The notes under the pieces: generated by a model
What the model saw: only the letters and a program-made list of their open reading frames with translations
What the model was told of the DNA's origin: nothing
The model's database searches: none
Shown here: positions 318 to 41,888 of the stretch, in pieces
Position numbering within the stretch: the stretch's first letter is position 1
Layout: each line of letters starts with the position of its first letter
Position numbers and translations under genes: made by a program
NCBI GenBank assembly: GCA_903847205.1
Contig: CAINDA010000058.1
Coordinates: 1-64,000 of the forward strand
Length of the DNA: 64,000 bases
Reading direction: 5' to 3'
Source: an uncultured Bacteroidota bacterium
GTDB lineage: Bacteria > Bacteroidota > Bacteroidia > 2-12-FULL-35-15

Positions 318-2759
318 TTATATATTAGCAGCCATAGATTCAATAACTTCCATATTAAAATTGTCTTTGGTTTGAATATAAGCAACTCTTGCATGTGGCA
401 CAGCGCCGTATTTATGTTTTTCAAAATCAGCTGATAAACCTAAATAAACTTTTGATAAACCAAGCATACGTGCACGTTTTAATACCTGGTACATGGCTTG
501 TTTGTATACTTTGAATTCATTATTGTAATTATAATCCAAACCGATAATCATTGGTGATAAATGTGTATCAGGAATGTAATGCCATCCCACCGCTACTGCT
601 TTTCTTTCATTACGGTTATCATACTCAGGTTTTAACTTTACTTCCATGAATTCCCAATTAGGATGTTTAGATAATTTTTTTAGAATATCTTTTGGATAGT
701 TGAACATATTAAATCCCCTATTTCTTTCTTCAACATTTAGATATAAGCTATAATAATATTCTGCCTCTTCATCTGTTAATTTGTTTTTATATACTATTTC
801 AAAAACATGTTCATATTTGAATACATCTGTTCTGATATGAATTCTATTGCGAGCAGAGACTGTTTTTATTAATTCCTCTTTCGTATTCCATATCAACTTT
901 TCGATAACATTTGAATTCGGCATATTTACTGGGGCAAATCCTTCCTTAATAAATAGTTCTTTTAATGCAGTATCTTCTTTATCAAAATCCCGAAGCAGTA
1001 TTGAATTGGCATTTATGGATTCCTGAATTTTTGCAACTCTTTCCAGAAGCTGGGTAAATGCTTCTTTCCATTTTGTATTTTTTCGGTTAATATAATAATG
1101 ATGCCCTTCTGTAAGCATAGAACCCATCGTTACAGTTTTAGAAGTGAGATAATATGGATCGGTTTTTCGTTTTTCTTCAATCTGGATAGATACAGATTCT
1201 AAAGCCAGCATATCATCTTTTAAAATACCTGCAGTAAAAAACGTTGCAATTACAGGCTGTTTGTCTTTATCTCGGATAATAAAATAATAAAAGTCCCAGT
1301 TTTCTTCCGGTTTGGAGTTATTGCTGAACACATCTTCTAAAGCTAAAAGGCCCTGCCAATCAAAATTTCCATTTTCTCCTAAAAGCTTATCCCATTCCTG
1401 CTTATCAATGTTTTTAATACTACGCGCTTCCTGAATTTCAAAATAATCAGCAGAGTTTTTTAAAATCGGATTAAGAATAGAGGATGCGGATTTTTTTTCA
1501 ATCACTGTTTTAAATGCTTTCCTTACATCCTCCATGGTTTTGTTTTCTTCTTCCAGTACTTTAGGATAATGATAAACCAAGGCATCAACAAATTGTTTTA
1601 TTTCATTTTTATTAACCTGCCGGCTGATAGAGCATCTTACTCCCGAATTTTTCATAGAAACCGAAGGGAACAAAGCAGGATTTACAAAAAAACCATCCTG
1701 CAACAGCCTCTTGACCATATTGAAGGTAACTTTGGGATGCCCCATCGCAATAAAATTGATGGGGGTAGCCTGGTCTGAAATTACTATCAATTCCGTATTT
1801 GAAAGCAGCTGCTGGCAGTAATTTATGTTTTCCCTCAATTCATTTTGTATTCTGTAAATATCATCCGATAAATGAATTTTCGCAGAAGCTGTTGCCGCTC
1901 CTATTATAGGGGGAGAAAGAGGGTGTGAATAAACCAATGGACCGCCGAAAATACGTACTTTCCTAGAGGTTTCTTCATCTGGAAAAACTGCAGCACCGCC
2001 CGTTACACCGAAACCTTTTCCCATGGTTGTCATTAAAATAACTTTTTCGTGTTTCCCAAATTTGCTGTTAATATAACCTGTTCCGTTTTTTCCATGCCAG
2101 CTCATTCCATGCGCATCATCTACATAAACATAAAGCTGTTGGTATTTATTCATCAGGTATAACAGGCTGTCAACAGGGGCTGTATCGCCATACATTGAAT
2201 ATACCCCGTCTATCAGGTACCATACTTTTTTATATTTACGGCATAATTGTTCCAACTGCCTCTCTAACATTTCCATATTGCTGTGCCGGATCATTTCAAT
2301 AGGGACGCCTTTCTGACGAAGGAGCTGCGCGGCAGTCTGCACACTCATGTGTACCTGCTGATCTAAAATCACAGCTTCGCCGTGCTGTATAAGAGTTGGA
2401 ATAACAGAAATGTGGGCGCTTGATGTGGAAGAATAGGTAATTACAGGCCGGTTATACATCTGCGATAAATAATCCTCTAACTGCCCATTGATTCCGGAAG
2501 AAAGAAAACCGCGTGATATGCCATACTGTGTACCGTATTTTTGAGTGAAATCAATAGCACCATCTTTCAAACGCTGATCCAGTTCTAAACCAAGATAACC
2601 GCAGGTACCGAAATTTAACAGCTCGTGATCTGAAACAGACAGTTTTCTGTCAGAAACATTGGGAATGTCAGCTGACAGATGAATAACACCTTGCTTTTTT
2701 GCATCTGTCAATAATGCATCAATTGTATCTAAAGAGTTATTATGATTGATTTTTGCCAT
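318..2759 (-). CDS. Alpha-oxoamine synthase fused to a GNAT-like acyltransferase
   Basis: An 813-residue PLP enzyme fusion. Residues about 1-410 are an alpha-oxoamine synthase of the serine palmitoyltransferase / AONS / KBL group. The PLP-ring His is near H137, the DDAHG motif is at 214-218, and the Schiff-base Lys is K248 in TTMGKGFG, followed by GG. Such enzymes condense an amino acid with an acyl thioester and release CO2. Family members are usually about 400 residues, so the remaining 400 are extra. From about 430 the sequence resembles GNAT/FemAB-type acyltransferases (for example NWDFYYFI, then a second half near 640-800), but I see no diagnostic catalytic residue. By inference the protein makes and N-acylates a sphingoid or sulfonolipid (capnine-type) base. 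Substrate specificity cannot be read from the sequence. It is transcribed alone, with its own terminator, and divergently from the STAS-like genes. Confidence 0.8.
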   Translation of the reverse strand: MAKINHNNSLDTIDALLTDAKKQGVIHLSADIPNVSDRKLSVSDHELLNFGTCGYLGLELDQRLKDGAIDFTQKYGTQYGISRGFLSSGINGQLEDYLSQMYNRPVITYSSTSSAHISVIPTLIQHGEAVILDQQVHMSVQTAAQLLRQKGVPIEMIRHSNMEMLERQLEQLCRKYKKVWYLIDGVYSMYGDTAPVDSLLYLMNKYQQLYVYVDDAHGMSWHGKNGTGYINSKFGKHEKVILMTTMGKGFGVTGGAAVFPDEETSRKVRIFGGPLVYSHPLSPPIIGAATASAKIHLSDDIYRIQNELRENINYCQQLLSNTELIVISDQATPINFIAMGHPKVTFNMVKRLLQDGFFVNPALFPSVSMKNSGVRCSISRQVNKNEIKQFVDALVYHYPKVLEEENKTMEDVRKAFKTVIEKKSASSILNPILKNSADYFEIQEARSIKNIDKQEWDKLLGENGNFDWQGLLALEDVFSNNSKPEENWDFYYFIIRDKDKQPVIATFFTAGILKDDMLALESVSIQIEEKRKTDPYYLTSKTVTMGSMLTEGHHYYINRKNTKWKEAFTQLLERVAKIQESINANSILLRDFDKEDTALKELFIKEGFAPVNMPNSNVIEKLIWNTKEELIKTVSARNRIHIRTDVFKYEHVFEIVYKNKLTDEEAEYYYSLYLNVEERNRGFNMFNYPKDILKKLSKHPNWEFMEVKLKPEYDNRNERKAVAVGWHYIPDTHLSPMIIGLDYNYNNEFKVYKQAMYQVLKRARMLGLSKVYLGLSADFEKHKYGAVPHARVAYIQTKDNFNMEVIESMAANI

Positions 2760-2763
2760 ATTC

Positions 2764-2794
2764 TTGATTGGTAAATTTTTAAAATATATATTTG
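2764..2794 (+). promoter_or_regulatory. Bacteroidota-type promoter for the STAS-like gene cluster
   Basis: TTG at 2764-2766, a 20-bp spacer, then TATATTTG at 2787-2794. This matches the Bacteroidota -33 (TTG) and -7 (TAnnTTTG) consensus. Transcription would start near 2801, about 50 nt before the ATG at 2854. It lies in the gap shared with the divergent synthase gene. Confidence 0.6.
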
Positions 2795-2853
2795 CAGAAA
2801 CAGCAGAAGCCCATTACGAAATTGACACAAACAAGTTACATTTACTCGAGACA

Positions 2854-3240
2854 ATGAAAGAAACACTTTTAGACAATGATGAAATTACTTTTGAGTTGGA
2901 AAATGGAATACTTATTGGAACCGGGAAATCGCCCTTTCTTGATATCCACGTTGCTATTAAAATTACTAATTATAGATTAGAAATACAAAAAGGAAAGTCT
3001 AATCCAATATTATCTAATATTAAAATGACCAAAAATTCAACAAAAGAAGCCAGAGATTTTTTAGCGTCAGAGAAAGGCTGTAAAGGAGTGATCGCAGCTG
3101 CAATACTAATTAATTCAGATGTTACTAGCATGATTGCAAACTTTTTTATGCGCATCAGCAGACCAATAGTTCCTACCAAAATATTTACAGATGAAGCTGA
3201 AGCCAAAACATGGCTTTCTCAATATGTGAAGAAAGATTGA
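2854..3240 (+). CDS. STAS/SpoIIAA-like small protein (DUF7793-like), copy 1
   Basis: A 128-residue cytosolic protein, the first of three tandem paralogues. Shared features are an N-terminal beta segment with ENGI, a central NPILSNIK / YPLLANIR segment, ARDFLASEKGC followed by a hydrophobic helix, and C-terminal P-TKIFTDE-EA-WL. The fold order resembles the STAS/SpoIIAA-like family annotated as DUF7793 in Bacteroidota (family name from memory). The molecular role is unknown. An upstream in-frame start at 2746 exists but overlaps the divergent gene and precedes the promoter, so I prefer the ATG at 2854. Confidence 0.7.
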   Translation: MKETLLDNDEITFELENGILIGTGKSPFLDIHVAIKITNYRLEIQKGKSNPILSNIKMTKNSTKEARDFLASEKGCKGVIAAAILINSDVTSMIANFFMRISRPIVPTKIFTDEAEAKTWLSQYVKKD

Positions 3241-3322
3241 AAAAAAATCAGGTCAGGCTGCTGCTTTTTTAATAAATATTCATCTAATAATTAATAGATT
3301 CTTTTAGATAGACATTAATGAT

Positions 3323-3703
3323 ATGAAAACACTGGCCGACAACGAATATCACAAGATGCAGCTTGAGAATGGTATTGTTATAGAAACTTTCAAACCAAGC
3401 TATCTTGATTTAAAAACGACTCAAAAATTAGTTGAGGATAGAGTAAAGACCATGGGCGGGACCTCTTACCCTTTGCTTGCAAACATTAGATCTATTAAAA
3501 CTTCTTCGAAAAGAGCGCGTGATTTTTTTGCTTCAGAAAAAGGATGCGATGGACTTATAGCAGCGGCATTGCTTGTGGATAGTACATTAGGAAGCATGAT
3601 TGGTAATTTTTTTGTTAAAGTAACCAATCCAAATATACCAACTAAAGCTTTTTCGAAAGAAACAGAAGCTAAAAAGTGGCTTGCTCAATTTGTGAAAAAA
3701 TAA
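3323..3703 (+). CDS. STAS/SpoIIAA-like small protein (DUF7793-like), copy 2
   Basis: A 126-residue paralogue of the genes on either side. It keeps LENGIVIE, YPLLANIRSIK, RARDFFASEKGCDGLIAAAL, IGNFF and the C-terminal EAKKWLAQFVKK. It starts 82 bp after copy 1 and ends 11 bp before copy 3, so the three are probably one transcript. No signal peptide or membrane segment is visible. Function unknown. Confidence 0.7.
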   Translation: MKTLADNEYHKMQLENGIVIETFKPSYLDLKTTQKLVEDRVKTMGGTSYPLLANIRSIKTSSKRARDFFASEKGCDGLIAAALLVDSTLGSMIGNFFVKVTNPNIPTKAFSKETEAKKWLAQFVKK

Positions 3704-3714
3704 TTCAAATCAGG

Positions 3715-4116
3715 ATGAAGCTTCAAAGCGAAATTGCAAATACTTTTTTTGAAAATGACTATGTTAAAATTGCATTGGATAAAAATATTGTTACAGGAAC
3801 ATTTAAGTCTGAATTCATTGATTTAAGCCTTGCCCAGATGATTATCAAATGGAGATTGGAATTTCAAAATGGAAACTGGTATCCATTATTATCGAATATT
3901 AAATCAATAAAGAACAACACAAAAGAAGCAAGGGATTATATGGCTTCAAAAGAAGCCTGCGAAGGAATTACCGCTGCTGCTATACTAATTGATTCACCTG
4001 TTGGAAAAACAATTGGTAATTTTTTAATTTTCTGCAGTAAACCGGTAGTTCCTTCAAAAATATTTACAGATGAAGCTGAATCCATACAATGGTTGCAGCA
4101 ATATACGGAAGTTTGA
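3715..4116 (+). CDS. STAS/SpoIIAA-like small protein (DUF7793-like), copy 3
   Basis: A 133-residue third paralogue, starting MKLQSEIAN. It keeps WYPLLSNIKSIK, ARDYMASKEACEGITAAAIL, IGNF and KIFTDEAES-WLQQY. A longer reading from 3676 would overlap the end of copy 2 and gives a non-homologous N-terminus, so the ATG at 3715 is preferred. Divergence between the copies is too large for recent amplification, which suggests distinct roles. Function unknown. Confidence 0.7.
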   Translation: MKLQSEIANTFFENDYVKIALDKNIVTGTFKSEFIDLSLAQMIIKWRLEFQNGNWYPLLSNIKSIKNNTKEARDYMASKEACEGITAAAILIDSPVGKTIGNFLIFCSKPVVPSKIFTDEAESIQWLQQYTEV

Positions 4117-5084: not shown

Positions 5085-5597
5085 ATGAAAAAACTTACAA
5101 AAATTTCAGCAAGCGCAATCATAGTGATTGGCTTTTCTTTAAACTCATTTGGGCAGGCAACTGGTCATGCTTCTGCAAGTGCAACCATTATGATACCAAT
5201 ATCTATTGTCCATGTTGCAGATTTGGCTTTTGGCAATGTTGCAGTTCAAGCTGGTACCGCCGGTACAGTTATTATGTCAACTGCAGGTGCGAGAAGTACT
5301 GGTGGAGCCGGCGGTGTCACTCTGCCAAGCGTAACTGGTACATTTAATGCTGCAGCTTTTACTGTTAATGGGGATGGAGCTTCTACATACGCTATTACTC
5401 TGCCTGCTACAGTAACTATTAATAGCGGGGGTAATAATATGACAGTTAATGCTTTTACAAGTAATCCTTCTGGCACAGGAGCATTAACCCTTGGTACTCA
5501 GTCTTTACTTATTGGTGCTACATTAAACGTTTCCGCAGGTCAGGCACCGGGCACATATACAAATGCTTCTTGGGATGTAATTGTAAATTATAATTAA
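5085..5597 (+). CDS. DUF4402 surface-fibre subunit 1
   Basis: A 170-residue secreted protein. A Sec signal peptide (residues 1-24, ending SFGQ) is followed by one DUF4402 domain: DLAFGNVAV, then GVTLPSVTGT, NNMTVNAFTS and a final VIVNYN strand. DUF4402 proteins are small beta-rich exported proteins commonly encoded beside PapD-like chaperones and ushers. The neighbours here fit that: a chaperone at 5813, a second DUF4402 protein at 6936 and an usher-like barrel at 7500. By inference this is the major structural subunit, because it has its own long upstream region and its own terminator. No catalytic motif is present. Confidence 0.85.
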   Translation: MKKLTKISASAIIVIGFSLNSFGQATGHASASATIMIPISIVHVADLAFGNVAVQAGTAGTVIMSTAGARSTGGAGGVTLPSVTGTFNAAAFTVNGDGASTYAITLPATVTINSGGNNMTVNAFTSNPSGTGALTLGTQSLLIGATLNVSAGQAPGTYTNASWDVIVNYN

Positions 5598-5615
5598 TCT
5601 ATAATTAGGAAAAGG

Positions 5616-5642
5616 AACGTCATGCTGCTGCATGACGTTTTC
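5616..5642 (+). terminator. Terminator after DUF4402 subunit 1
   Basis: Arms AACGTCATGC (5616-5625) and GCATGACGTT (5630-5639) with a 4-nt loop, then TTTC. It lies 18 bp past the stop codon. It would partly separate the subunit from the chaperone and usher genes, a common way to make subunit mRNA more abundant. Confidence 0.75.
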
Positions 5643-5760
5643 AATTTGCCCTGCATTTTAATTAACATAAGAAAGTGTAAAACTTTTCATTTCAATAAAT
5701 TAAGGTTTGTTATCATTTTGACATATTAATAAGGTAGGACAAAAAATAATTTCAGCCACA

Positions 5761-5774
5761 GAATATTAATATTC
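5761..5774. promoter_or_regulatory. 14-bp perfect palindrome upstream of the chaperone gene
   Basis: GAATATTAATATTC is its own reverse complement and lies 38 bp before the chaperone ATG. It is AT-only in the centre, so chance is not excluded. It is a candidate operator. Confidence 0.3.
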
Positions 5775-5812
5775 CAAGTAGGTAGGCTGCCACAAAACTT
5801 AATAAATAAAAT

Positions 5813-6670
5813 ATGAATAAAATGTTGTATAATAAACAAGGTCTTAAAAACAAAATTAAATTGTTTTTATTGGGAGTTGTATTGATAGTTTCTTCAATGA
5901 AATTAAAGGCTCAAGGTGATTTACTTATTTTTCCAAAGAGATTAGTTTTTGATGAAACTAAAAAGTCTCAAACAATTAATTTGAGTAATGATGGAAAAGA
6001 TACATCACGATACATAGTATCCTTTATTCAAGTTAGGATGAAAGAAGACGGCAGTTTCGAAAATATTACCGAACCCGATCCCGGACAGTATTTTGCAGAC
6101 CCATACCTCCGTATTTTCCCACGCAAAGTTGTTTTGGGACCAAAGGAGTCACAGGTTATTAAAGTACAACTGCAAAAAACAGAACAGATGGCGCCAGGTG
6201 AATACAGGTCTCATCTTTATTTTAGAGCTATTCCAGATGTGAAGCCTTTAGGTGAAAAAGAAATTAAAAAAGAAGATGCATCCATTTCTGTGAAATTAGT
6301 CCCTGTTTTCGGTATAACTATTCCAATAATTATTCGAAAAGGAGAAACAACAGCCAAGGTTAGTCTTTCAAATTTAACTTTTCAAAAATTTAATGACTCC
6401 ATTCCTCTGATTAAAATTGATTTTAACAGAAGCGGAAATATTTCTGTTTATGGCGATATAAAGGTAAATCTTGTATTGGCTAATGGCAAATCAACTAAAG
6501 TAGGGGAAGTAGATGGTTTTGCCGTTTATACACCAGGAACTTTAAGGAAATGCAAGATAGAATTAAAAAAAGGTATTGATTACAGCAAAGGAAAGTTGGT
6601 TGTATCTTTTGAAGCAACGGCAGAAGATAAGAGCGTTAAGTTAGCGGAAGCATTGCTGGAATTGCATTAA
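5813..6670 (+). CDS. PapD-like periplasmic chaperone
   Basis: 285 residues with an N-terminal signal (to about residue 34, ending LKAQG) and an immunoglobulin-like chaperone region. Chaperone-type features are the first strand LLIFPKRLVFDE, the LSNDGKD turn, LRIFPRKVVLGPKESQVIKVQL (close to the family IxPxxxxLxPGxxQxVRI pattern) and YRSHLYFRAIP. Family members hold fibre subunits in the periplasm and hand them to the usher. The second domain (after about 180) is divergent from proteobacterial PapD. It sits between the two DUF4402 subunit genes, upstream of the usher-like gene. An alternative start at 5822 is possible. Confidence 0.8.
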   Translation: MNKMLYNKQGLKNKIKLFLLGVVLIVSSMKLKAQGDLLIFPKRLVFDETKKSQTINLSNDGKDTSRYIVSFIQVRMKEDGSFENITEPDPGQYFADPYLRIFPRKVVLGPKESQVIKVQLQKTEQMAPGEYRSHLYFRAIPDVKPLGEKEIKKEDASISVKLVPVFGITIPIIIRKGETTAKVSLSNLTFQKFNDSIPLIKIDFNRSGNISVYGDIKVNLVLANGKSTKVGEVDGFAVYTPGTLRKCKIELKKGIDYSKGKLVVSFEATAEDKSVKLAEALLELH

Positions 6671-6935
6671 TTTTTTTTCAAATTAATATTTTTAGTTTGG
6701 AATCTATTGATTAAATCATATCAAAATCATTAAAATCAGCTTTTGAATTCAATTTCTTCAGCCTTCCAAAAACTTTAATTTAATGATTACCCAGCCGTTT
6801 TTTTTCACGTGGGCATCTATGTAAATATAAAATTGTTTCATAGAAGCATCCTACGCATTGACGTATCATTAGGAAACCAGCTGAATCATAAATACAGATA
6901 ATTCACGAGCATAGACCATAAATATATACTTTAAA

Positions 6936-7394
6936 ATGAATTTTTTAAAAATCATATTGTTTGTTTTTTTTGTTTCAGTTTTTTATACTGCTGTTTCTCA
7001 AACCATTTCTAAAACAGTGGATATGAGTTTTGGCAATATTGCTGTTTCAGGACCCGGAACGGTTGTAATAAACCCTAACGGTTCAAGAGGATGTACTGGA
7101 GGAATAACACTTCCAGGTTTAACTGGTACTGTTACTGCTGCTTCTTTTGATGTTTCAGGCACAGCTCTTCATACGTATAGTATAACACTTCCAGTAATTG
7201 GCTCCTCCATTAGCAGCGGGGGCAATACTATGACAGTTGATACTTTTACCAGTGACCCTTCAATTACAGGCACATTAAGTGCAGGCGGCACACAGCAATT
7301 AAAAATTGGCGCTACTTTACATGTTAATGGAGCTCAAGCTTCAGGCACTTATACAAGCGGCTCTACATTTGCTGTCACCATTAATTATAACTGA
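6936..7394 (+). CDS. DUF4402 surface-fibre subunit 2
   Basis: 152 residues with a signal peptide (to about 21, VSQT) and one DUF4402 domain. It has the same block order as the protein at 5085: DMSFGNIAV, GITLPGLTGT, SSGGNTMTVDTFTSDPS, LKIGATLHV and a terminal VTINYN. It is shorter at the mature N-terminus. It lies 106 bp before the usher-like gene. A minor or adaptor subunit is a reasonable inference. I see no donor-strand extension I could defend. Confidence 0.85.
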   Translation: MNFLKIILFVFFVSVFYTAVSQTISKTVDMSFGNIAVSGPGTVVINPNGSRGCTGGITLPGLTGTVTAASFDVSGTALHTYSITLPVIGSSISSGGNTMTVDTFTSDPSITGTLSAGGTQQLKIGATLHVNGAQASGTYTSGSTFAVTINYN

Positions 7395-7499
7395 ACAAAT
7401 ACTTTTTATAGTATTAATACTTTTAAAAAGTAATTATCAGATCAGCGCTAAAAAAACAGATACTTGAATTCCGGACCAAATGAGTGAGAAATCCTATAT

Positions 7500-10400
7500 A
7501 TGGAAAATAATACTATTCCATTTTTAAAAACTCGGTCAAGCTTTCCTAAATTTATTTTGGGATTTTTTTTCTTTTGTATTTTACTCAGCTCTTTTATTAT
7601 CCCCTCAAAATTATTTGCAGAAACTAAAGACCCTGAACCTCCGGTTGAAACCGATGAAGTATTAATCGTTTTATATGTGAAAAACCTCGGAACCTGTGAA
7701 ATACCTGCCGCAATCAGAGATCAGGATATCTACCTTCCGGTGGTTGATGTCTTCAATTTTTTAAAAATCCGAACAGTTTCAGGTAATGGATTTGACATGA
7801 TTTCAGGCTTTTTTGTTGACCCGAAAAATGTTTACCAAATTGACAGAGCAAACAAAATAATTATTTACCAGGGTAAAAACTATGCCCTGCGTTCCTCCGA
7901 TATTATTGTAACTGAAACAAACTTATATCTTAAAGCTAAGTATTTCGATCAAATTTTCGGATTAGAGTGTAAATTTAACTTCAGGGCCCTTACTATATCT
8001 ATGAAGTCTAATTTAGAACTTCCGGCAATTAGAGAGTTGCGGTTGGAACAGATGCATTCTAACTTTGATCGCTTAAGAGGAAATATGAAGGCGGATACAA
8101 CCATTGCCAGAGCGTACCCATTGTTTCATTTTGGAATGGCGGATTGGTCAATAAATGCAAATCAAGTTGTTAATGGAATAAACACAACAAGACTCAATTT
8201 GGGGCTTGGCGCAATTTTAGCCGGAGGAGAATTAAATAGTTTACTCTTATATAATGCCAATCAGCCTTTTTTAGAAAAACAGCAATTTTACCAGTGGAGA
8301 TATGCAAATAATGAAAATCAAGCTCTGCGTCAGATAATATTGGGCAAAATTGCTGCCTCGCCTGTTTCATCAGTATTTTATCCTGTTGTAGGTTTGCAAT
8401 TTACTAATGCCCCTACTATTAACAGAAAATCATTTGGTACATATACGTTGAGTGATAATACCCAGCCAAACTGGACGGTTGAACTATATGTGAATGGAGT
8501 ATTGATTGATTATGTAAAAGCGGATGCCTCTGGCTTTTTCACTTTTGATGTTCCTCTTATTTACGGCAGCACCGATGTTACCCTGCGCTATTATGGCCCT
8601 TGGGGGGAGGAATTATCTTCAAAACAAAATTTCACTATCCCCTTTAACTTTCTGCCGCCAAAAGAAATGGAATATAAAGTAAGCTCTGGAATTATTGAAG
8701 ACGATAAAAACAGTTTATTCGGACAAGCCAAGATGAATTATGGGGTAACGAAGTCCTTTACATTTGGCGGAGGCTTAGAATATAATTCTTCAATTGCCGC
8801 ATCAAAAAATATTGCTTTTTTTAATACCTCTCTAAGGCTGGCTTCTAATATACTTTTTAATGGAGAGTATGTTTATGGAATAAGATATAAAGGCTTATTG
8901 ACTTATCATCTCCCCACTAATCTTCAAGTAGAACTGTATTACAGCAAATACAATCCTGCCCAGGATGCTGTTAAATTAAATTATACTGAAGAAAGAAAAT
9001 TAATGATTTCTCAGCCTTTCCATCTCATAAATATTTCTGCACTTTCAAGACTAACAGTTAGTCAAAATTTACTTGAACATCCTTTAACTGATCTCCCTCC
9101 GACAAAATATACTATTCCTGAGTTTTCATTATCAGGAACTGCGCATGGAATAAGTGCGAATATATCAACTTCAGCATTCATCATTGATAATTATTATACT
9201 ACTGTTTTTAGTGATGCCTCAATATCTACAACTCTTCCTGCAGGTATCCTTTTTACCCCTCAAATAAGATTTGACTACAAACTTAATGAAATCACTATTG
9301 TTAAATATAGTTTAGAAAAACGTTTTATTAAGTATGGCGTTATTAATGCTTCATACCAATACAATTTTAGTACAGGTTCTCCAATTTATCAACTTGGTTT
9401 CAGATATGATTTTTCTCGTGCCCGCGTTGGTTTCTCAGCTTTGCAAAGTAATAATACAAACTCCATTTCTGAATTTGCTAGCGGCAGTTTGATTTACCAG
9501 CCGCAAATAAATTACCGCGACTTTAATGTAAACACAAATGTGGGCAGAGGGGGGCTGATATTTATTCCATTTCTGGATATAAATAATAACGGAAAAAAAG
9601 ATGCAAATGAACCAAAAGTAAGCGGCTTAAATATTTTGGTAAGCGGCGGTGGTATTCAAAAAAGAAATAATGATACAACAATTGTTATTTCTGGATTAGA
9701 GCCCTATACTAATTATTTTGTGGAAGTTGATGCAAATAGTTTTGAAAATATGGCGTGGAAAATTATTAAACCCAAAATGAATATTGCAATTGAACCAAAC
9801 AAATTAAAACTGATTGAAATCCCCGTTGCCATTGCTGGTGAGGTTTCCGGAACAGTTTACATAAAAAAGCAAAACGAAGAAAAAGGTTTAGGTCGTATTT
9901 TAGTCTGCTTTTATACAACAGATTCCGTTTTGATTAATAAAACATTAACAGAGCAGGATGGATATTTTAGCTTTTTAGGATTACTGCCTGGTTCCTATTA
10001 TGCAGCAATTGAAATGCAGCAATTAAATAAATTGCAAATGGTTTCTGTTCCTTCATTTATACCCTTTAAAATAAAAGGCGGTACTGAAGGGGATGTTGTT
10101 GATGGTTTAAAATTTATACTTCAGTCTAAATCAAAAGGAGCAGTTGTACCAATTGCCGAAAAACAGATTGTGTCAAAAACTGATAACCTGACTGAACTTG
10201 CCCAAAACAAACTGTTAAACAAAGAGCCTCAGATAAACACAGTAAACCCTCCGCAAATTTCTGACACACTTAAAACGCTTTTACCTTTAATGGTTAAAAA
10301 ACAAACGGATTCATTAAAACAAGCTAATAAACAGCCTGAGATAAAAACAGTAAATCCTCCGCAAATTTCTGACACACTTAAGACGCTTTTAGCCTTGATG

Positions 10401-11675
10401 GTAAAAAAACAGGCGGATTCAATAAAATCTGCCAACCTTAATCCTATTGTAAAAACAAATCCTATAGTAATTTCTAATACATCTTCGGGCCCGAATGCTT
10501 TGGCAGCCAAGAAACATTCAGATTCTTTATTAGCTTTGGCTAAAAAGCCGGAGGTAAAAGAAATAAATCCTCCACAAACTTCAGAAACTGTTAAAACGCC
10601 ATCTACATTAATTGTTAATAAACAGGTGGATTCACTAAAACAAGCGAAAAAACAAGCGAAAACAAATATTGCAGAAAATCTGATAATAGATGAAAAGGGT
10701 AGTTTTGCAGTACAGGCCAGAGCACACAGTCAGCTGTCGGATGCGCAGGCAGCTCAAATAAAACTCAGTAAAATATTTAAGCAGCCGGTTGTGATTGTTA
10801 AAGAAGGAGGATTATACAAAGTACGTATTGATGGATTCAACAGCCATGATGAAGCCGCTTCTGTAATTCCTAAACTCACTGAGGCGGGATATGCCGGAGC
10901 TTTTGTTATAAATCCTTCAAAAAACGAAACAGCACCTGTTAATATCATTGAAAGCCCTGTTATAAAGGAAAAAGGAAATGTTGCTATTCAGGTTAGGGCT
11001 AATCGCAAACTGGCCAATGCGAAGGAAATCCAATCAAAACTTAATAAAATTTTTAAACAGCCCGTTATAATTACTCAAGAAGGCGATTTATTCAAAGTTA
11101 GGATTACAGGCGTTAAAAACCTCGAAAAGGCCGCTGCGATGCTGGTTAAACTAGCAGAACTTGGGTATAATGATGCATTTATAATGAGCCCTGGAGTGAA
11201 TCCCGGCGGTTTAAAAACTGGAGCCGAATTAAATAAATCAAATGAATATATTCATACTGATCATCCTCCGTTCGAAGTTCTGCTTGAAGTGCTTTCAGGA
11301 AAAATTAAATCAGACAGACCTTTATCTCCGGCTGAACTTAATAGAATTGAAGAAACAGTAGTTACTAACAATGACGTATTAAAACGATCGAAATTTGGCG
11401 ATAAGCCTATTTATTCAATACAGATTGCTAAATATGAAAATGGACTTCCGCAAAAATCATTGGCAGTTGTATTAAAATTGAATACTCAGGTGGAATCATA
11501 TACTAATAAAAAAGATGGTTTAACCAGATATTTTACCGGAAGCTTTGCTTCGTATAATAAAGCACTAAAATATCAAACTGAATTAATAAAAAAAGGATTT
11601 AAAAACCCATCAATTATTGTTATAGATAAAGGAAGAATAATTCCAGCAAGCGACTATAAGAAGCAAAAAAAATAA
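7500..11675 (+). CDS. Usher-like outer-membrane barrel with C-terminal SPOR-type domains
   Basis: 1391 residues. A signal peptide (to about 40) is followed by an N-terminal domain (about 52-175) and a long barrel-like region (about 190-680). The barrel region contains an usher-type plug segment, VELYVNGVLIDYVKADASG, then YGPWGEE and LPPKEMEYKVSSG. Next come a Ca-binding-like DINNNGKKDANEP loop near 692 and beta domains to about 880. A low-complexity linker (about 905-1050) has three 36-residue-type repeats with NPPQISDTLKT. Then there are two SPOR-like domains (about 1064-1140 and 1156-1230) and a third near 1300-1391. Ushers are outer-membrane secretion pores of about 800 residues, so the SPOR part is an unusual extension. 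SPOR domains bind peptidoglycan. Fibre assembly is inferred from the neighbours. Confidence 0.75.
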   Translation: MENNTIPFLKTRSSFPKFILGFFFFCILLSSFIIPSKLFAETKDPEPPVETDEVLIVLYVKNLGTCEIPAAIRDQDIYLPVVDVFNFLKIRTVSGNGFDMISGFFVDPKNVYQIDRANKIIIYQGKNYALRSSDIIVTETNLYLKAKYFDQIFGLECKFNFRALTISMKSNLELPAIRELRLEQMHSNFDRLRGNMKADTTIARAYPLFHFGMADWSINANQVVNGINTTRLNLGLGAILAGGELNSLLLYNANQPFLEKQQFYQWRYANNENQALRQIILGKIAASPVSSVFYPVVGLQFTNAPTINRKSFGTYTLSDNTQPNWTVELYVNGVLIDYVKADASGFFTFDVPLIYGSTDVTLRYYGPWGEELSSKQNFTIPFNFLPPKEMEYKVSSGIIEDDKNSLFGQAKMNYGVTKSFTFGGGLEYNSSIAASKNIAFFNTSLRLASNILFNGEYVYGIRYKGLLTYHLPTNLQVELYYSKYNPAQDAVKLNYTEERKLMISQPFHLINISALSRLTVSQNLLEHPLTDLPPTKYTIPEFSLSGTAHGISANISTSAFIIDNYYTTVFSDASISTTLPAGILFTPQIRFDYKLNEITIVKYSLEKRFIKYGVINASYQYNFSTGSPIYQLGFRYDFSRARVGFSALQSNNTNSISEFASGSLIYQPQINYRDFNVNTNVGRGGLIFIPFLDINNNGKKDANEPKVSGLNILVSGGGIQKRNNDTTIVISGLEPYTNYFVEVDANSFENMAWKIIKPKMNIAIEPNKLKLIEIPVAIAGEVSGTVYIKKQNEEKGLGRILVCFYTTDSVLINKTLTEQDGYFSFLGLLPGSYYAAIEMQQLNKLQMVSVPSFIPFKIKGGTEGDVVDGLKFILQSKSKGAVVPIAEKQIVSKTDNLTELAQNKLLNKEPQINTVNPPQISDTLKTLLPLMVKKQTDSLKQANKQPEIKTVNPPQISDTLKTLLALMVKKQADSIKSANLNPIVKTNPIVISNTSSGPNALAAKKHSDSLLALAKKPEVKEINPPQTSETVKTPSTLIVNKQVDSLKQAKKQAKTNIAENLIIDEKGSFAVQARAHSQLSDAQAAQIKLSKIFKQPVVIVKEGGLYKVRIDGFNSHDEAASVIPKLTEAGYAGAFVINPSKNETAPVNIIESPVIKEKGNVAIQVRANRKLANAKEIQSKLNKIFKQPVIITQEGDLFKVRITGVKNLEKAAAMLVKLAELGYNDAFIMSPGVNPGGLKTGAELNKSNEYIHTDHPPFEVLLEVLSGKIKSDRPLSPAELNRIEETVVTNNDVLKRSKFGDKPIYSIQIAKYENGLPQKSLAVVLKLNTQVESYTNKKDGLTRYFTGSFASYNKALKYQTELIKKGFKNPSIIVIDKGRIIPASDYKKQKK

Positions 11676-11763
11676 TGGTGCTTTAATCAATTCTAATTTA
11701 AAAAAGTTCATACTCAATTCCGATATCAGGTTAATTTTTTGCAACAGAAAATAGCGATTTTGA

Positions 11764-12041
11764 TTTTTTATTCATAAAAATCAGTTTCTCAGTCTTAAAA
11801 ATGTTTTTCTCGATCTTAAAAAGCGATTTTTCAATCGTGAAAGATAGTTTTTCAGCCCTGAAAAGCAGTTTCACAATCGTAAAAACGGTTTTCTCAACCT
11901 TAAAAATATTTTCTGGATCATAAAAGTGATTTTTTCAATCGTCAAAATGGTTTTTTCAATCTTGAAAAGTAGTTTCACAATTGAAAAAATCACTTTCACG
12001 ATCATAAAAAATATTTTTTCGAACAAAAAAACAGGTTTTTC
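11764..12041. repeat. Tandem array A, about 13 units of about 21 bp (T-tract type)
   Basis: Degenerate units of the form TTTTTC-AATC-T-AAAA. The C that ends each T-tract falls at about 11788, 11809, 11832, 11853, 11872, 11893, 11913, 11936, 11957, 11976, 11997, 12020 and 12041, a mean spacing of 21.1 bp. T-tracts and A-tracts alternate within each unit, so the DNA may be intrinsically curved. It is not in an ORF. It has the same period as arrays B, C and D but an unrelated consensus. Confidence 0.8.
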
Positions 12042-12062
12042 GATTGAAAAACCTGTTTTTTA
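12025..12062. terminator. Bidirectional terminator after the usher-like gene
   Basis: Arms ACAGGTTTTTC (12031-12041) and GAAAAACCTGT (12046-12056) with a 4-nt loop, preceded by A6 and followed by T6, so it can act on both strands. The last unit of array A forms its left arm. Confidence 0.85.
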
Positions 12063-12141
12063 ATAATTGTTGTCTTTTTCTATGAATCGCCTTGTTATTC
12101 TTCGTTCAAGATAAAGAATAATACAGGTATTAATCAAGGCC

Positions 12142-12250
12142 CCTCAATATATTTCCAATTTTACAGCATGTACTCTCAATATTTTAGCACCATTGACTAA
12201 AGCAATTATGTTTAAAATAGATGTACCGTTTAATGCTTCTCCGGATTTAA
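12142..12250 (-). pseudogene. Relic of the 3' end of folP
   Basis: Positions 12167-12250 align without gaps to 13341-13424 inside folP, with about 9 mismatches in 84. The minus-strand reading still gives ALNGTSILN-IAL-NGAKILRVH, then a shortened tail and a stop. The part matching the last codons lacks about 25 nt. No other part of folP is present. It lies in the same orientation as folP, so the gene at 12289 is bracketed by two folP ends. Confidence 0.8.
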
Positions 12251-12288
12251 TGTTTAATTTGTAAATTTACAAATTCACCAATCAGCAA

Positions 12289-13215
12289 ATGTTGAAACAT
12301 CTTACGGTTATTTTTTTTATTTGGGGAATCAATACTTCTTTAGCACAATATTTAACTGCAAAACAAAAAATTCCATCAGGACTTGTTTCCGGAACTAGTT
12401 TTATAGTTAATGTTACTATCGACAAAGGTAAGCTTAACGGCATTTTAAAATATTCACAGCCCCTTCCGAAAGGGTTCACAGCAAGCAATATTGACTGCAA
12501 AAACGGAAATTTTGCATTTGAAGATAATACAGCAAAAATTATTTGGCTTAAGCCTCCTTCAGAAACATCCTACACGATAAGCTACCAAATAACCGTTCCC
12601 AAAAATGCATCCGGTTCAAAAAGTTTTGGAGGTAAAATAATTTACGTCACTAATAATAATGAAAGAAGAGTGTTCGATTTTCCTTTAAAAAGGGCAGTTA
12701 TATCAAATTTTAATACACCCTTAATAACTGAAAAAAAAACACAAAAGCCGATTATTGCTCCGCCTGTAAAGCCTGTAATAGCGGTTATTTCACAAAAAAA
12801 CAAAAACATACTAAAATCTGAAAATTCAAAGAGCAGTATAGTTCAAAAGGATTTCCAAGATGTGGAAAAGAAAGATATATCGGGCTATTTAAATGACCCG
12901 AAAATATTTTACAGAGTTCAGATCGGAGCATTCAAATCGGATCATAAAATAAATGGAGTACCTGAACAGTCAACCTTTAAGATTAATGAAATTACAAAAC
13001 ATTTCAGCGGTAATTTTTCTTCCTACAAAGCAGCCACAGGAAGAAAAATGATGATGATTAATAAGGGATTTAAAGATGCGTTTGTTGCCGAGTTTATTTT
13101 AAGAAATCAAATCTTCGTGCAAAAAAACAATACTGCTTGTATGCCAGGTGAATTTATCATGGGAGAACCTCATATCTGCTATGTCTGGTGGGATTTAGTT
13201 TCAACAACTAATTAG
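12289..13215 (+). CDS. Secreted protein with SPOR-like C-terminal domain
   Basis: 308 residues. There is a signal peptide (to about 19, SLAQ), a beta-rich N-terminal domain (about 20-140) and a Lys/Pro/Ser linker (about 145-200). The C-terminal region (about 205-285) starts FYRVQIGAFKSD and continues to FSGNFSSYKAATG and GFKDAFVAEF, which fits a SPOR-type peptidoglycan-binding domain. The last 25 residues hold two Cys and two Trp. The N-terminal domain is not recognised. It follows the usher-like gene in the same direction and shares its SPOR theme, so it may be an accessory factor of the fibre system. It is separated from that gene by a terminator, so it needs its own promoter. Confidence 0.65.
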   Translation: MLKHLTVIFFIWGINTSLAQYLTAKQKIPSGLVSGTSFIVNVTIDKGKLNGILKYSQPLPKGFTASNIDCKNGNFAFEDNTAKIIWLKPPSETSYTISYQITVPKNASGSKSFGGKIIYVTNNNERRVFDFPLKRAVISNFNTPLITEKKTQKPIIAPPVKPVIAVISQKNKNILKSENSKSSIVQKDFQDVEKKDISGYLNDPKIFYRVQIGAFKSDHKINGVPEQSTFKINEITKHFSGNFSSYKAATGRKMMMINKGFKDAFVAEFILRNQIFVQKNNTACMPGEFIMGEPHICYVWWDLVSTTN

Positions 13216-30876: not shown

Positions 30877-31624
30877 TTGTTTTTTTAGGATTATTTGAAA
30901 TCCCTCGTCGAAATAAAAAAATATTTTTTTAAAACGCTAGTCATTTTTAATTTTATCGAACATTTAATTGCATTCAATGTAAAATCGCAGCGTTTCGTCA
31001 TATTATTTTATGATGTAACGATAATGGACTGCAAATAATTCAGCAATTTTTTAAAATATATGTCCTTTAGCAAATTTTTGACCGCCGAATTATAAAAGAA
31101 AACGAATGTTGGTTTTTAGTAAACAATTGTTGGTTTTAAGTAAACATGTGTTTACTTAAAGTAAACTTTCGTTTACTTTGAGTAAACGGTTCTCAAATTA
31201 AAAAAAACGGGAATATTACTTCAAGTAAACGGAAGTTTAATTGAAATAAACAAGTAAATGATGCCGGCAAACAATTGTTTATTAAAATCAAACAATTAAA
31301 TATTTTTATAATTCTCTCCACAGATTTTTAAAAACGGCCGTTTATTTTAAGCAGACAGCCATTTACCGGCATAATAAAAATGTTAAAAGAGGCCATACTG
31401 ATGATTTACTTTGTACAACAATTATTTGCTTTATTAATAAGTCACAGCAAGGCTTTTAATTCCCGGTTTTTTTCCAAAAAGTAAATATTAAATACTGTCT
31501 GATTTTAAAAATCCTTATTCTTTGAAAAAACACCTAATGCCAATTTGTCCAAATTTCTCCCTTGGCATAACGATTGAAACCCATCAGTATATTATTTTAT
31601 TTTTAAAACTAATTTTATTCCAAT
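30877..31624. other. 748-bp divergent intergenic region with array B
   Basis: Separates the minus-strand family gene from lon. It holds array B (31105-31294) and otherwise AT-rich sequence. No ORF and no RNA gene were recognised. Promoters for both flanking genes must lie here. I found no box I would defend. Confidence 0.5.
31105..31294. repeat. Tandem array B, 9 units of 21 bp (GTAAAC type)
   Basis: GTAAAC or a close variant starts at 31119, 31140, 31161, 31182, 31203, 31225, 31246, 31267 and 31288. The spacing is 21 bp throughout, except for one step of 22. Within a unit GTTTACTT is followed by AAGTAAAC, so individual units are near-palindromic. Units differ from each other at many positions between the boxes, so the phasing is better conserved than the sequence. 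Confidence 0.9.
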
Positions 31625-36382: not shown

Positions 36383-39300
36383 ATGAAATACAGCCGTTCC
36401 AGATTTTTATTTTTATTTATTGCCGGCTGGCTTTTTGTTACCTCGCTTTCTGCCCAGGAATGCAATATAATTTATGTAACTCCCACCGGTGCTTCCAGCG
36501 GAAGTGCCGGTACAGTTGGCACTGTTTCAAATCCTGCAAAACTATCTTTTGGTTTGACATTAGTAACGGGTAATGCAAAACAGCTTTGGCTGGCAACAGG
36601 CACCTACCCTATTTCAAATACCCTGACAATCCCAAGCAACGTAACCATTGAAGGCGGTTTTAATCCAGCAGGCTGGGTTAAAAGCAACGTTTCTGCAACT
36701 ATTATTGACAAGGATAATAATAATGTTCTTCCTTCTCCTGCTGATGCATTAGTGGGCTTGACTGCTGCCGGAGCTTCAAATTTCAGATTGCAGGATATTA
36801 CTGTAAACGTTGCAGCTGCCCCTGGAAACGGTATTTCTGTTTATGGAATTTATTTATCGGGGTGCTCAAACTACAGCTTAGTACGCTGTTTGGTAATTAC
36901 AGGTGCAGGATCTGACGGGCTTGCCGGAACGCCAGGAACTGCAGGTGTTCCAGGAGGCGATGGAGGTGCAGGCAATCCAGGCAATCCTAACGAAAATACT
37001 CAGCCTGGCGGTACGGGCGGAGTTGGAGGCGGCGGAGCAAATAATGGAGGAGATGGATCTGTAAGCGGAAAATGGAAGGCAAGCAATAATTCGCCAGGTT
37101 CACCCGGACTGCCAGCGGGCTGCGGTGGAGCAGGCGGAAGTACTGGTTCTGGCCCTTCATGCAGTTTTTTATGCGGTGCATGCACTGATGCAAGTCCTGG
37201 AGGTGCCGGAACAGCTGGGCAAAGCGGGGTTGCCGGAACTGCCGGAACAGCAGGCTCACCAGGAGCAATAACGTTAGGATATTTTGTACCTGGAACCGGT
37301 GGCGGTGCAGGTACACCCGGAACAACAGGATGCGGCGGAGGCGGTGGCGGAGGCGGAGGCGGTGATCAGCAAGGCGGACTAGATGGTGTAGGCGGCAGCG
37401 GCGGTGGCGGCGGAGGAGGCGGCGACGGAGGTGCGGGCGGTGCAAGCGGCAGCGGCGGAGGTGCTTCATTTGCAGTTTTTCTTTATAATAACGGTGCAGG
37501 AAGTATCATTCAGGATTGTTTCTTAAATCAAGGCGCGGGCGGTGCTGGAGGTCCAGGCGGCATCGGCGGCGCAGGGGGGGCAGGCGGTATAGGCGGTATA
37601 GGCGGTGTTGGCGACTGCGCCCAGGAAAACGGAGCAGCAGGCGGTAACGGCGGTGCAGGCGGTATTGGCGGAGCCGGTGGTATTGGGGCAGCAGGCATAA
37701 GTACCGCTCTCAGCGAAAATGGAGGAACGCCGATATCAAATTTAGGAATTACTGCAGTACCGGGTAACCCGCCGGTAATAAGCGCTGCATATAAAGGCTG
37801 TACTAATTCAGAAGTTTTATTCAGCGCAGTTACCAGCGGTACCTGGAATTTTGGTCCCGGCGCATCTCCTGCAACGGCAACCGGTACAGGACCTTTTTCT
37901 GTTTATTATTCTTCAATGGGCCGGAAAGATATTACTTTCAGCGGAACAGTATTCAGCGGTTATATAAATATTTTTCAGCCGGGTCCGGTAACGCCGAGTA
38001 TTAATCCGGCAAACGGAACTGTAATACTAGGCTGCCCAAATAACTTTACCACTTCACTGGCCGGCACTTATTATGAATGGATTTTTGGACCATCGGCTAC
38101 ACCTGATACCATGCTTGCAGTGCAGTCGCCGACAAATGTTTACTTTTTTTCTCCGGGAATACATACAATTTATGTTTACGTTACTACAGCCTGCTGCGGA
38201 AGAGTTTTAGATTCTACTACAGTTACTGTAACACCGAGCAATTATAATGTAACCTTGACTGCTTCGCCGACTCAAAGCTGCATCGGCGATCCTATTACTT
38301 TTACTGCAAGTATCGGCTCACCGCCATTTGTCGGGTTTTCGTTTTTTGTGAACAATACAGCTGCTCAAAGCGGACCAAGCAATGTATTTACAACTTCATC
38401 TTTAATGCCGGGCGACAGTGTAGTTGTTATTGCAATTGAGGGAAATTGTTATACAAACCCCAGCGCAGTTTACAGACCGGTTATTTCTCCCATCCCGGTT
38501 GTATCTTTAATAAGCGGGGATGCCGACAGCACCATCTGCCAAGGCGATAATATTCTTTTTATTGCCCTGCCTCCCGGAAATACCAGTTATGAATTTTTTG
38601 ATAACGGCGTTTCTGTTCAAAACTCCAACAGCATTTCATATACCACCACAACTTTACAGCCGGGCAACAGCATTACCGTTGTGGCAACAAACCTGGGCTG
38701 TGTAAGCCTGCCGAGCAATGCCAAAGTAACTACTGTAAATTTAACCCCTGTAACAGTATTAACCAGCTCTGATGCTGATAATATTTTATGCGGCCCGGGA
38801 AACAGCGTAACGTTTACGGCCACTCCTCCGGGGTTTGCCAATTATCAATTTTTTGACGGAGGAAATTCGGTACAGAACGGAGCAGGCAATACTTATACAA
38901 CTACCACTCTGGCGGCCGGCAACAGCATTTCAGTGATTGCAACAAGTGCAGCAGGCTGCGTAGGGCCAACAAGCAATGCCATCGCCACGGCCATTAACCC
39001 TATACCAACAGCAGTTCTCAGCAGTTCGGATGCTAATGACACAATATGCCAGAATGCATCTATCACTTTTACATCGACCCCGGCCGGGTATGGCAATTAT
39101 CAATTTTTCAATAATGCAGTTTCGATACAGAACGGAGTTTCTAATACATTTACAACCACTGCACTGGCTGCCGGAAACAGCATCACGGTTGTTGCAACAG
39201 CCCTAGGCTGTTCGAGCCCGATAAGCGATACAATTAAGGTAACCATTATTCCTGCTCCGCTGGTAAATGCAGGGCCTGATTTTGCGGTATGTATCAATGT

Positions 39301-40222
39301 GCCGCCTTATACGCTTACAGGGTTTACTCCGGCTAACGGAGTTTGGACCGGGATCGGAATTACCAATGCCGGACTTTTTAATCCGGTAACGGCAGGAGCT
39401 GGTATTCATCAACTCCTTTACGCTTTTACCAATATCAGCAGCGGATGCACCGGTTACGATACTTTAAATGCCGCAGTTATACCAATACCGGTAATTTCGG
39501 TTTCGCCTGCTTCTCCGGCCTATTGTGCGGGCAGTGCTGTGATGTTAACGGCATCGGGAGCAAATACATATACATGGTCTCCGGCTGCAGGATTAAGTGC
39601 TGCTGCAGGTTCTTCTGTTTCGGCAAGCCCGCCGGTTACTACCACTTATACTGTAATAGGAACCAGCTTTGGCTGTATGGATTCTACCACAACAACTGTT
39701 ACTTTTAACCTGGTGCCTTCGGTAACAATTTCGGGAAATACTACTATTGATGCCTGCGAAACTACGGTGCTGACAGCCATGTCAACTTCTGTAGGAACCT
39801 ATTCATGGGGCCCTCTTATAAATTTGACCTGCAATACCTGCCAATCGGCAACAGTATCTCCGCCGGCATCGCAAAAGTATTATGTTGATTTTATTTCTCC
39901 GCAAGGCTGCATAGGTTCCGATACTGTTAAAGTGGATGTTGTAAGTATTTTCAATTATTTTATGCCTACTGGTTTTACGCCGAACGGCGACGGGCGCAAT
40001 GATTCAATTCATGTTCACGGACGGGGTATTGAATCGGTTGATCTTAAAATATTTGACAGGATCGGGGAAAAAGTATTTGAAACAACTAATATTCATGAAG
40101 GCTGGGATGGCAGATATCATGATGTGGAAATGAATGACGCGGTATTTGTATATATGCTTGAAGTAAAATACTGTAACGGGCAGGTTGTGAAGGAACAAGG
40201 GAATTTGACACTAGTAAGATAA
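36383..40222 (+). CDS. Gly-rich repeat adhesin with T9SS type B sorting domain
   Basis: 1279 residues. After the signal peptide (to about 24, LSAQ) comes a beta-helix-like part (about 30-170), then a 270-residue block of G-G-A/G-N repeats (about 176-445). After that are Ig/PKD-like repeats, four of them about 85-90 residues long with the theme TICQ...ITFT-TP-G--NYQFF-N--S-QN and TTTLAAGNSI-VVAT. The end is a gliding-motility-associated type B sorting domain (about 1190-1279: FMPTGFTPNGDGRNDSI, LKIFDRIGEKVFE, GWDGRY). It is secreted by T9SS and probably held at the cell surface by the PorP/SprF protein encoded 59 bp downstream. Confidence 0.9.
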   Translation: MKYSRSRFLFLFIAGWLFVTSLSAQECNIIYVTPTGASSGSAGTVGTVSNPAKLSFGLTLVTGNAKQLWLATGTYPISNTLTIPSNVTIEGGFNPAGWVKSNVSATIIDKDNNNVLPSPADALVGLTAAGASNFRLQDITVNVAAAPGNGISVYGIYLSGCSNYSLVRCLVITGAGSDGLAGTPGTAGVPGGDGGAGNPGNPNENTQPGGTGGVGGGGANNGGDGSVSGKWKASNNSPGSPGLPAGCGGAGGSTGSGPSCSFLCGACTDASPGGAGTAGQSGVAGTAGTAGSPGAITLGYFVPGTGGGAGTPGTTGCGGGGGGGGGGDQQGGLDGVGGSGGGGGGGGDGGAGGASGSGGGASFAVFLYNNGAGSIIQDCFLNQGAGGAGGPGGIGGAGGAGGIGGIGGVGDCAQENGAAGGNGGAGGIGGAGGIGAAGISTALSENGGTPISNLGITAVPGNPPVISAAYKGCTNSEVLFSAVTSGTWNFGPGASPATATGTGPFSVYYSSMGRKDITFSGTVFSGYINIFQPGPVTPSINPANGTVILGCPNNFTTSLAGTYYEWIFGPSATPDTMLAVQSPTNVYFFSPGIHTIYVYVTTACCGRVLDSTTVTVTPSNYNVTLTASPTQSCIGDPITFTASIGSPPFVGFSFFVNNTAAQSGPSNVFTTSSLMPGDSVVVIAIEGNCYTNPSAVYRPVISPIPVVSLISGDADSTICQGDNILFIALPPGNTSYEFFDNGVSVQNSNSISYTTTTLQPGNSITVVATNLGCVSLPSNAKVTTVNLTPVTVLTSSDADNILCGPGNSVTFTATPPGFANYQFFDGGNSVQNGAGNTYTTTTLAAGNSISVIATSAAGCVGPTSNAIATAINPIPTAVLSSSDANDTICQNASITFTSTPAGYGNYQFFNNAVSIQNGVSNTFTTTALAAGNSITVVATALGCSSPISDTIKVTIIPAPLVNAGPDFAVCINVPPYTLTGFTPANGVWTGIGITNAGLFNPVTAGAGIHQLLYAFTNISSGCTGYDTLNAAVIPIPVISVSPASPAYCAGSAVMLTASGANTYTWSPAAGLSAAAGSSVSASPPVTTTYTVIGTSFGCMDSTTTTVTFNLVPSVTISGNTTIDACETTVLTAMSTSVGTYSWGPLINLTCNTCQSATVSPPASQKYYVDFISPQGCIGSDTVKVDVVSIFNYFMPTGFTPNGDGRNDSIHVHGRGIESVDLKIFDRIGEKVFETTNIHEGWDGRYHDVEMNDAVFVYMLEVKYCNGQVVKEQGNLTLVR

Positions 40223-40350
40223 ATGATATGCCAATGTACTGATATACCGATTTGCCGATGTGTAGATGTACCAATTAACAAATGAAAAAATCAAAACTAT
40301 ATCTTGTGGTTCTAATATGCGCATCTGCATATCTGCATATCTGCACATCT
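40223..40350. repeat. Decayed palindromic repeat spanning the porP/sprF start
   Basis: The left part (40223-40281) is made of words such as CCGATTTGCCGATGTG and TAGATGTACC. The right part (about 40318-40348) reads GCGCATCTGCATATCTGC and CACATCT, roughly complementary to the left. It covers the intergenic gap, the start codon and the codons of the signal peptide of the next gene. The words resemble those of the repeat at 63294-63369. Confidence 0.5.
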
Positions 40351-41349: not shown

Positions 41350-41634
41350 CGTTTTTAAAAATTAATCCCCGATAAAAGCAACATCCTGCCCTATTGCCTT
41401 ATAAAATACCCGCCTGATTTACCAAAACAACCGATTTCCTATTCTTTAATCATGTTTTTTTATGATCTAAATCATAAATTGCGATTTTTCTGAATTTATA
41501 GGCATATTTTATTATGTAAGTACGAATTAATTTTTACATTCGCATCCGATAAAAACAGGTTTTGATATGCTTACTATTGCACTTCATACTTCAAATATGG
41601 CTTATCTGCCAAAGCCTACAGCCTTTTTCAGCTT

Positions 41635-41888
41635 CATTTTACGCTGTGCTGAAATCATTTTACGCCGGGCAAAAATCATTTTATCCAAGCCTTCGGTGAT
41701 TTTATGCCGGGCTAAAATCATTTTACGCCGGGCTAAAATCATTTTATTCTTCGGAACCAGTCATTTTATCCCGGGCAAAAATCATTTTATCCCAGCCTTC
41801 AGCGATTTTATCCCGGGCAAAAATCATTTTACGCCGGCCTTCCGTGATTTTACGACGGGCAAAAATCATTTTATCACAGCATAAAATC
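41635..41888. repeat. Tandem array C, 12 units of 21 bp (ATTTTA type)
   Basis: ATTTTA starts at 41636, 41657, 41678, 41699, 41720, 41741, 41763, 41784, 41805, 41826, 41847 and 41868. All steps are 21 bp except one of 22. The common unit is CATTTTAYSCCGGGCAAAAAT, and several units have a variant half containing CCTTC. Unit junctions read AAAATCATTTTA, so they are near-palindromic. Same period as arrays A, B and D, with an unrelated consensus. Confidence 0.92.

Follow-up and report, generated by a model that had tools for sequence, protein, structure and literature searches.

The stretch of DNA considered here (the window) comprises 64,000 nucleotides, positions 1 to 64,000 of contig CAINDA010000058.1, which is an 89-kb contig in the 5.49-Mb genome of an uncultured Bacteroidota bacterium (assembly GCA_903847205.1). 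Four genes on its forward strand lie in the order subunit, chaperone, subunit, usher (Table 1). The two subunit genes, SUB1 and SUB2, encode proteins whose sole confident Pfam match is DUF4402 (PF14352, cut-off 25.2 bits), and a search of the genome found these two DUF4402 genes and no others. This arrangement had been proposed in a first-pass annotation made from the sequence, and the open reading frames and PF14352 matches bear it out. The locus is read here as a chaperone-usher operon for fibre assembly, of a class with DUF4402 subunits, with a probability of about 0.86.

Table 1. Features of the DUF4402 chaperone-usher locus, in window coordinates (AF2, AlphaFold2; Ig, immunoglobulin-like; pLDDT, predicted local distance difference test; VIA, VIA-align)
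Feature	Position	Strand	Basis or remark
SUB1, N-terminally extended DUF4402 subunit, presumed to polymerise (shaft)	5085..5597	+	PF14352, 98.3 bits; 23-residue N-terminal spacing
N-terminal extension of SUB1, presumed donor strand (QATGHASASATIMIP)	5154..5198	+	In SUB1-type subunits only, not usher-adjacent ones; cleavage site placed by eye
10-bp perfect inverted repeat, 19 bp 3′ of the SUB1 stop	5616..5639	+	Possible attenuator or 3′ stabiliser
PapD-like periplasmic chaperone, two Ig domains	5813..6670	+	PapD_N at cut-off; AF2; Foldseek/VIA; hhalign
Predicted G1 strand of chaperone (GITIPIIIRK), presumed donor to subunits	6311..6340	+	AF2 strand, residues 167-176
SUB2, DUF4402 subunit lacking such an extension, presumed to form the tip or initiate	6936..7394	+	PF14352, 99.4 bits; adjoins usher
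Outer-membrane usher with SPOR tail, 1391 amino acids	7500..11675	+	AF2 pLDDT 82; Foldseek E 2e-25 (FimD); VIA Z 22.8
Usher N-terminal periplasmic domain	7653..8009	+	Model residues 17-135; approximate boundaries
Usher barrel strands 1-6	8124..8405	+	Model residues 174-267
Usher plug, between barrel strands 6 and 7	8406..8654	+	Model residues about 268-350; lower confidence
Usher barrel strands 7-24	8667..9500	+	Model residues 355-632
Usher C-terminal periplasmic domains, SdrD_B / CarboxypepD-like beta sandwiches	9513..10127	+	Pfam and AF2 model
Linker (108-bp repeat at 10221-10427) plus three SPOR stretches, presumed to anchor to peptidoglycan	10128..11672	+	PF05036, E 1.7e-21

The product of the fourth gene is longer than an ordinary usher, with a core of about 840 residues followed by a SPOR tail of about 500, and its Pfam matches are to SPOR and, weakly, to SdrD_B/CarboxypepD. 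Because the usher-family profile search suggested at first pass matched no Pfam usher model, its identity as an usher rests on structure and conserved synteny. An AF2 model built from a 49-sequence alignment consists of an N-terminal domain, six barrel strands, a plug, eighteen more strands and C-terminal sandwiches, in agreement with the 24-strand barrel and plug anticipated by the first-pass annotation, with the plug region modelled less confidently. In PapC and FimD the plug sits between barrel strands 6 and 7, the position it occupies in the model. All of the top 18 Foldseek matches in the PDB are FimD or PapC (E 2e-25 to 3.8e-12), and the C-terminal domains are also aligned in the usher matches. 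VIA-align gave Z-scores of 22.8 for the FimD pore (root-mean-square deviation, rmsd, 4.2 over 357 residues) and 22.2 for the PapC pore; the best non-usher barrel reached 17.9. These high scores for non-usher barrels, together with the missing Pfam match, would suit an unrelated outer-membrane exporter that has only the general barrel shape in common with ushers. That explanation is nevertheless very improbable, given that ushers take all the top places, that the plug lies at the same strand position, that the C-terminal domains align, and that a PapD-like chaperone gene recurrently adjoins the barrel gene.

Profile comparisons by hhalign also point to an usher. Against six ushers of E. coli K-12, the usher family profile scored 92.9% (E 3.7e-7, 495 columns), compared with 0.3% for LptD and 0.1% for FhuA as single-sequence controls, and a proteobacterial usher set of the same family, compared separately with the same E. 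coli ushers, reached 93.3%. Single sequences gave weak matches by hhalign (FimD, 4.6%; EcpB and EcpC), and tblastn of the window usher also gave a weak match, to the F4 usher FaeD, with 36% identity across 89 residues of the plug region (E 0.4). PDB sequence searches with single proteins and with profiles returned no usher match and no significant chaperone match (PapD, E 0.97). On its modelled architecture the product is an outer-membrane usher, overlooked by standard annotation because its family is unnamed in protein databases. PF00577 matched in none of 41 related Bacteroidota genomes and did match in the E. coli positive control.

The chaperone reaches the PapD_N profile barely, at 23.2 against a cut-off of 23, so that the PapD search put forward at first pass succeeded by a narrow margin; seven of 24 relatives also match. 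Its AF2 model (pLDDT 83) has the two tandem Ig domains expected at first pass, and the leading Foldseek and VIA-align matches are nearly all pilus chaperones (CfaA, YadV, CsuC, Caf1M, CupB2, FimC and SfaE), the exception being the WxL-interacting protein WxLIP. The chaperone profile aligned with seven E. coli K-12 chaperones at 95% (E 4e-8; pilin control, 0.4%). By its predicted fold, the product is a PapD-type two-Ig periplasmic chaperone. Chaperone donor strands carry alternating hydrophobic residues, and predicted strand G1 of this protein has such a pattern, conserved in the alignment; it is presumed to act as the donor to the subunits.

Classical chaperones anchor the subunit C-terminus through Arg8 and Lys112, and hhalign places an arginine of the window chaperone at the Arg8 position and I/P, in contrast, at that of Lys112, where the alignment is uncertain. 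In the predicted strand F of domain 1 (residues 129-139, placed without superposition) lies R132, in a GEYR motif, and P103 is invariant in the alignment. Archaic and alternative chaperones are marked by an arginine conserved in domain 1, on strand F, and by an invariant proline on strand D (PMC4654587); R132 thus lies in the strand of the non-classical arginine, and the archaic chaperone CsuC is joint first among the VIA-align matches (Z 13.3). The chaperones of one divergent clade (loci L086-L088) have no counterpart of R132.

The subunits fall into two kinds. With mature N-termini set by a simple signal-peptide rule, the first core motif is preceded by a median of 17 residues in usher-adjacent subunits (n = 45), which have no A/S/T-rich extension, and by a median of 25 in the other subunits (n = 28), most of which show a ASATATASATIITP-like pattern. 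SUB1, with 23 residues, is typical of the second kind; at locus L080, exceptionally, a short subunit lies 5′ of the chaperone. Since the tip of a chaperone-usher pilus is the one subunit that has no donor extension, SUB2 is best read as the tip or initiating subunit and SUB1 as the polymerising shaft subunit, whose N-terminal extension is presumed to be a donor strand. These extensions suggest strand complementation in DUF4402 fibres. The C-terminal tails of SUB1 (...GTYTNASWDVIVNYN) and SUB2 resemble an F strand and have a glycine about 15 residues from the end, and pilins have similar tails with a glycine. Alternatively, what the same machinery exports could be short DUF4402 oligomers or a soft coat resembling a capsule, in the manner of F1 antigen, with no adhesive-tipped fibre. 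Such a product would accord with the two small single-domain subunits of the window locus, which has no two-domain adhesin, and with the F1-type Caf1M complexes among the structural matches of the chaperone, but the separate extension-less subunit found at the usher in 45 loci fits a linear fibre that is capped and has a definite tip, and a coat is considered unlikely.

Several observations weigh against a chaperone-usher fibre operon. The lack of a Pfam usher match extends to all 49 relatives of the usher, and an archaic usher (from a Palleronia locus) compared alone with the usher profile scored weakly, at 3.3%. Whole-model TM-scores of the top usher matches are moderate (about 0.44-0.57) with a large rmsd, possibly from shifts between domains. 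The DUF4402 profile matched no pilin in the PDB, and DUF4402 found no match among E. coli pilins by hhalign (2.7%). Finally, the intergenic gaps of 105-265 bp are wide for a single operon. Strong hairpins, unrelated in sequence between loci, follow SUB1-type genes at many other loci, and the hairpin after SUB1 is possibly an attenuator between the subunit and assembly genes.

Homologous loci place the window in a wider family. A scan of GTDB contigs found 56 loci beside the window, mostly in Bacteroidota, in orders including Bacteroidales, Flavobacteriales and Sphingobacteriales, with one locus each labelled Ignavibacteriae and KSB1; the subunit-chaperone-usher set is kept in nearly all loci with enough flanking DNA. 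Cultured carriers include Flavobacterium frigidarium DSM 17623, Flavisolibacter nicotianae and Pedobacter sp. L105. Across an even sample of the phylum, the usher profile matched at E 1e-10 in 87 of 395 genomes, about a fifth, which is an upper estimate for complete ushers because some matches span part of the profile only. Ushers of a divergent clade, at about 25% identity, were found at L086-L088 and among matches of 45-110 bits in the phylum sample, and may form a second sub-class. The class is not confined to Bacteroidota: on the proteobacterial side, where the survey covered plasmids, tblastn found DUF4402-chaperone-usher loci in Polaromonas, Sphingopyxis, Novosphingobium and Pseudoalteromonas. 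Their proteins aligned with the Bacteroidota profiles by hhalign at 100% for both usher (E 6e-55) and chaperone (E 3.6e-59), and the class is therefore trans-phylum. NCBI annotation names one of these plasmid chaperones fimbria/pilus periplasmic chaperone and the others molecular chaperone or hypothetical protein; most of the ushers appear there as carboxypeptidase-like regulatory domain proteins. IS6 transposase genes lie near the operon on two Polaromonas plasmids (L134 and L135) and flank it in L135, an arrangement suggestive of movement between replicons or taxa.

Compared with known systems, the window locus resembles classical type 1 (FimC/FimD) and P (PapD/PapC) pili in its predicted usher architecture and two-Ig chaperone. 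It differs in having DUF4402 subunits where classical pili have Fimbrial-family pilins, an usher outside PF00577, and a SPOR tail on that usher. Archaic (sigma) pili such as Csu and CupE have spore-coat-U type subunits (SCPU); the window subunits match DUF4402 and not SCPU, so that by this criterion the system is not archaic. The proteobacterial plasmid loci have homologous chaperones, ushers and DUF4402 subunits, and in Pseudoalteromonas SPOR domains too, but unlike the window they carry both DUF4402 genes 5′ of the chaperone and have no type IX secretion system (T9SS). The proposed product also resembles type V pili (FimA/Mfa1) as a Bacteroidota surface fibre assembled by strand exchange. 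Type V pili are usher-less and are made from lipoprotein precursors with protease processing. No FimA/Mfa1-type fimbrillin match in Pfam was found in the window subunits down to E 1. Published accounts assign chaperone-usher pili to Proteobacteria and extend the archaic class to Cyanobacteria and Deinococcus-Thermus (PMC4654587, PMC10104325). A literature search in which subscription journals were thinly covered found no chaperone-usher system in Bacteroidota and no paper naming DUF4402.

The SPOR domains lie within the usher itself, in three stretches of its tail, with the best PF05036 match at residues 1066-1137. Of the scanned ushers, 35 carry a tail 60 residues or longer, which matches SPOR in 29 and TPR in others, and about ten are nearly tail-less. 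On the proteobacterial side, SPOR genes flank the DUF4402-chaperone-usher operon in Pseudoalteromonas xiamenensis, and SPOR lies at the end of the usher itself in Pseudoalteromonas Bsw20308. SPOR domains bind glycan stripped of peptides, and the likely role of the tail is therefore to anchor the usher to peptidoglycan. SPOR-tailed ushers appear to be a new feature.

A second apparently new feature is a gene with a T9SS signal upstream of the subunit-usher pair. In 35 loci (within L036-L084), a large gene lies directly 5′ of the SUB2-usher pair, and in 26 of them it shares 1 or 4 bases with the start of the gene that follows. The encoded proteins range from a few hundred to over 2400 residues (lengths as sequenced), and their domains (Laminin_G_3, Ig, GEVED and Gly_rich) suit adhesins. 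The NCBIfam T9SS type A sorting domain is present at the C-terminus of all 33 proteins scanned. A profile built from the C-termini of the large proteins matched all 35, a comparison that is circular, unlike the independent NCBIfam result; among 182 other genes of these loci it matched 4. As proposed at first pass, a T9SS exists alongside the chaperone-usher locus in the window genome, which has SprA_N (E 2.2e-161) and at least 150 Por_Secre_tail matches. The fibre might thus act jointly with the T9SS, a large exported protein standing on or beside it, and the window locus would then be a reduced form or have its cargo elsewhere. The position, overlap and sorting signals of the large genes, and the SprA and many T9SS substrates of the window genome, speak for such a partnership. 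However, neither the window locus nor its nearest relatives (L033, L034, L035 and L082) have a large gene of this type upstream, none of the large proteins has a DUF4402-like domain, and gene linkage is no proof of contact; the odds are judged to be well short of even. Somewhat less doubtful, though still tentative, is the broader proposal of a new trans-phylum chaperone-usher class with DUF4402 fibres and SPOR-anchored ushers, joined in most Bacteroidota carriers with a T9SS-secreted giant surface protein.

For the chaperone-usher fibre itself, a course of secretion, strand exchange and assembly can be proposed by homology, with strong structural support. The Sec system would carry the DUF4402 subunits into the periplasm, where the G1 strand of the PapD-like chaperone would fill the unfinished fold of each subunit, and the usher N-terminal domain would receive the complex. 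The N-terminal extension of an incoming SUB1 would displace the chaperone strand from the preceding subunit, and the fibre would grow out through the 24-strand usher pore. SUB2, extension-less and unable to join an existing chain, would be the tip or first subunit, and the SPOR tail, on denuded glycan, would fasten the assembly platform to the cell wall.

The first-pass annotation had extended the locus from 5085 to 13215 and included a SPOR-like accessory gene. Its start stands, but the locus ends at 11675, and the SPOR-like gene at 12289-13215 was rejected as an accessory: it belongs to a separate family present in 36 of 41 relatives, mostly usher-less ones. That family is widespread in the genus but located elsewhere in those genomes; in the window the gene lies between the usher and folP, and in another genome of the genus (G002) folP lies directly 3′ of the usher with no such gene between. 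Scans of the window for sigma-70-type promoters and terminators did not rise above the level of shuffles, and no Rfam families or tRNA genes were found in it. Elsewhere in the window, three successive DUF7793 paralogues (about 110 bits each) occupy 2746-4116. Tandem arrays, mostly intergenic, lie at 11775-12061, 31096-31251, 41634-41873 and 59748-60076, the last being open in several frames; all four have a 21-bp period, but their units differ. Named by eye, a giant Gly-rich surface protein and, after it, a PorP/SprF-like outer-membrane protein lie at 36383-41349, and a 2248-residue repetitive protein with SPOR-like ends at 46758-53504.

If the locus assembles a fibre as proposed, Bacteroidota would have another way of making fibres in addition to type V pili, and DUF4402, a domain with no assigned function, could be given the concrete role of pilus subunit. 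The family also raises two testable ideas, namely that ushers are anchored to peptidoglycan and that the fibre is coupled to T9SS cargo; if the latter is true, two outer-membrane export routes would build one surface structure.

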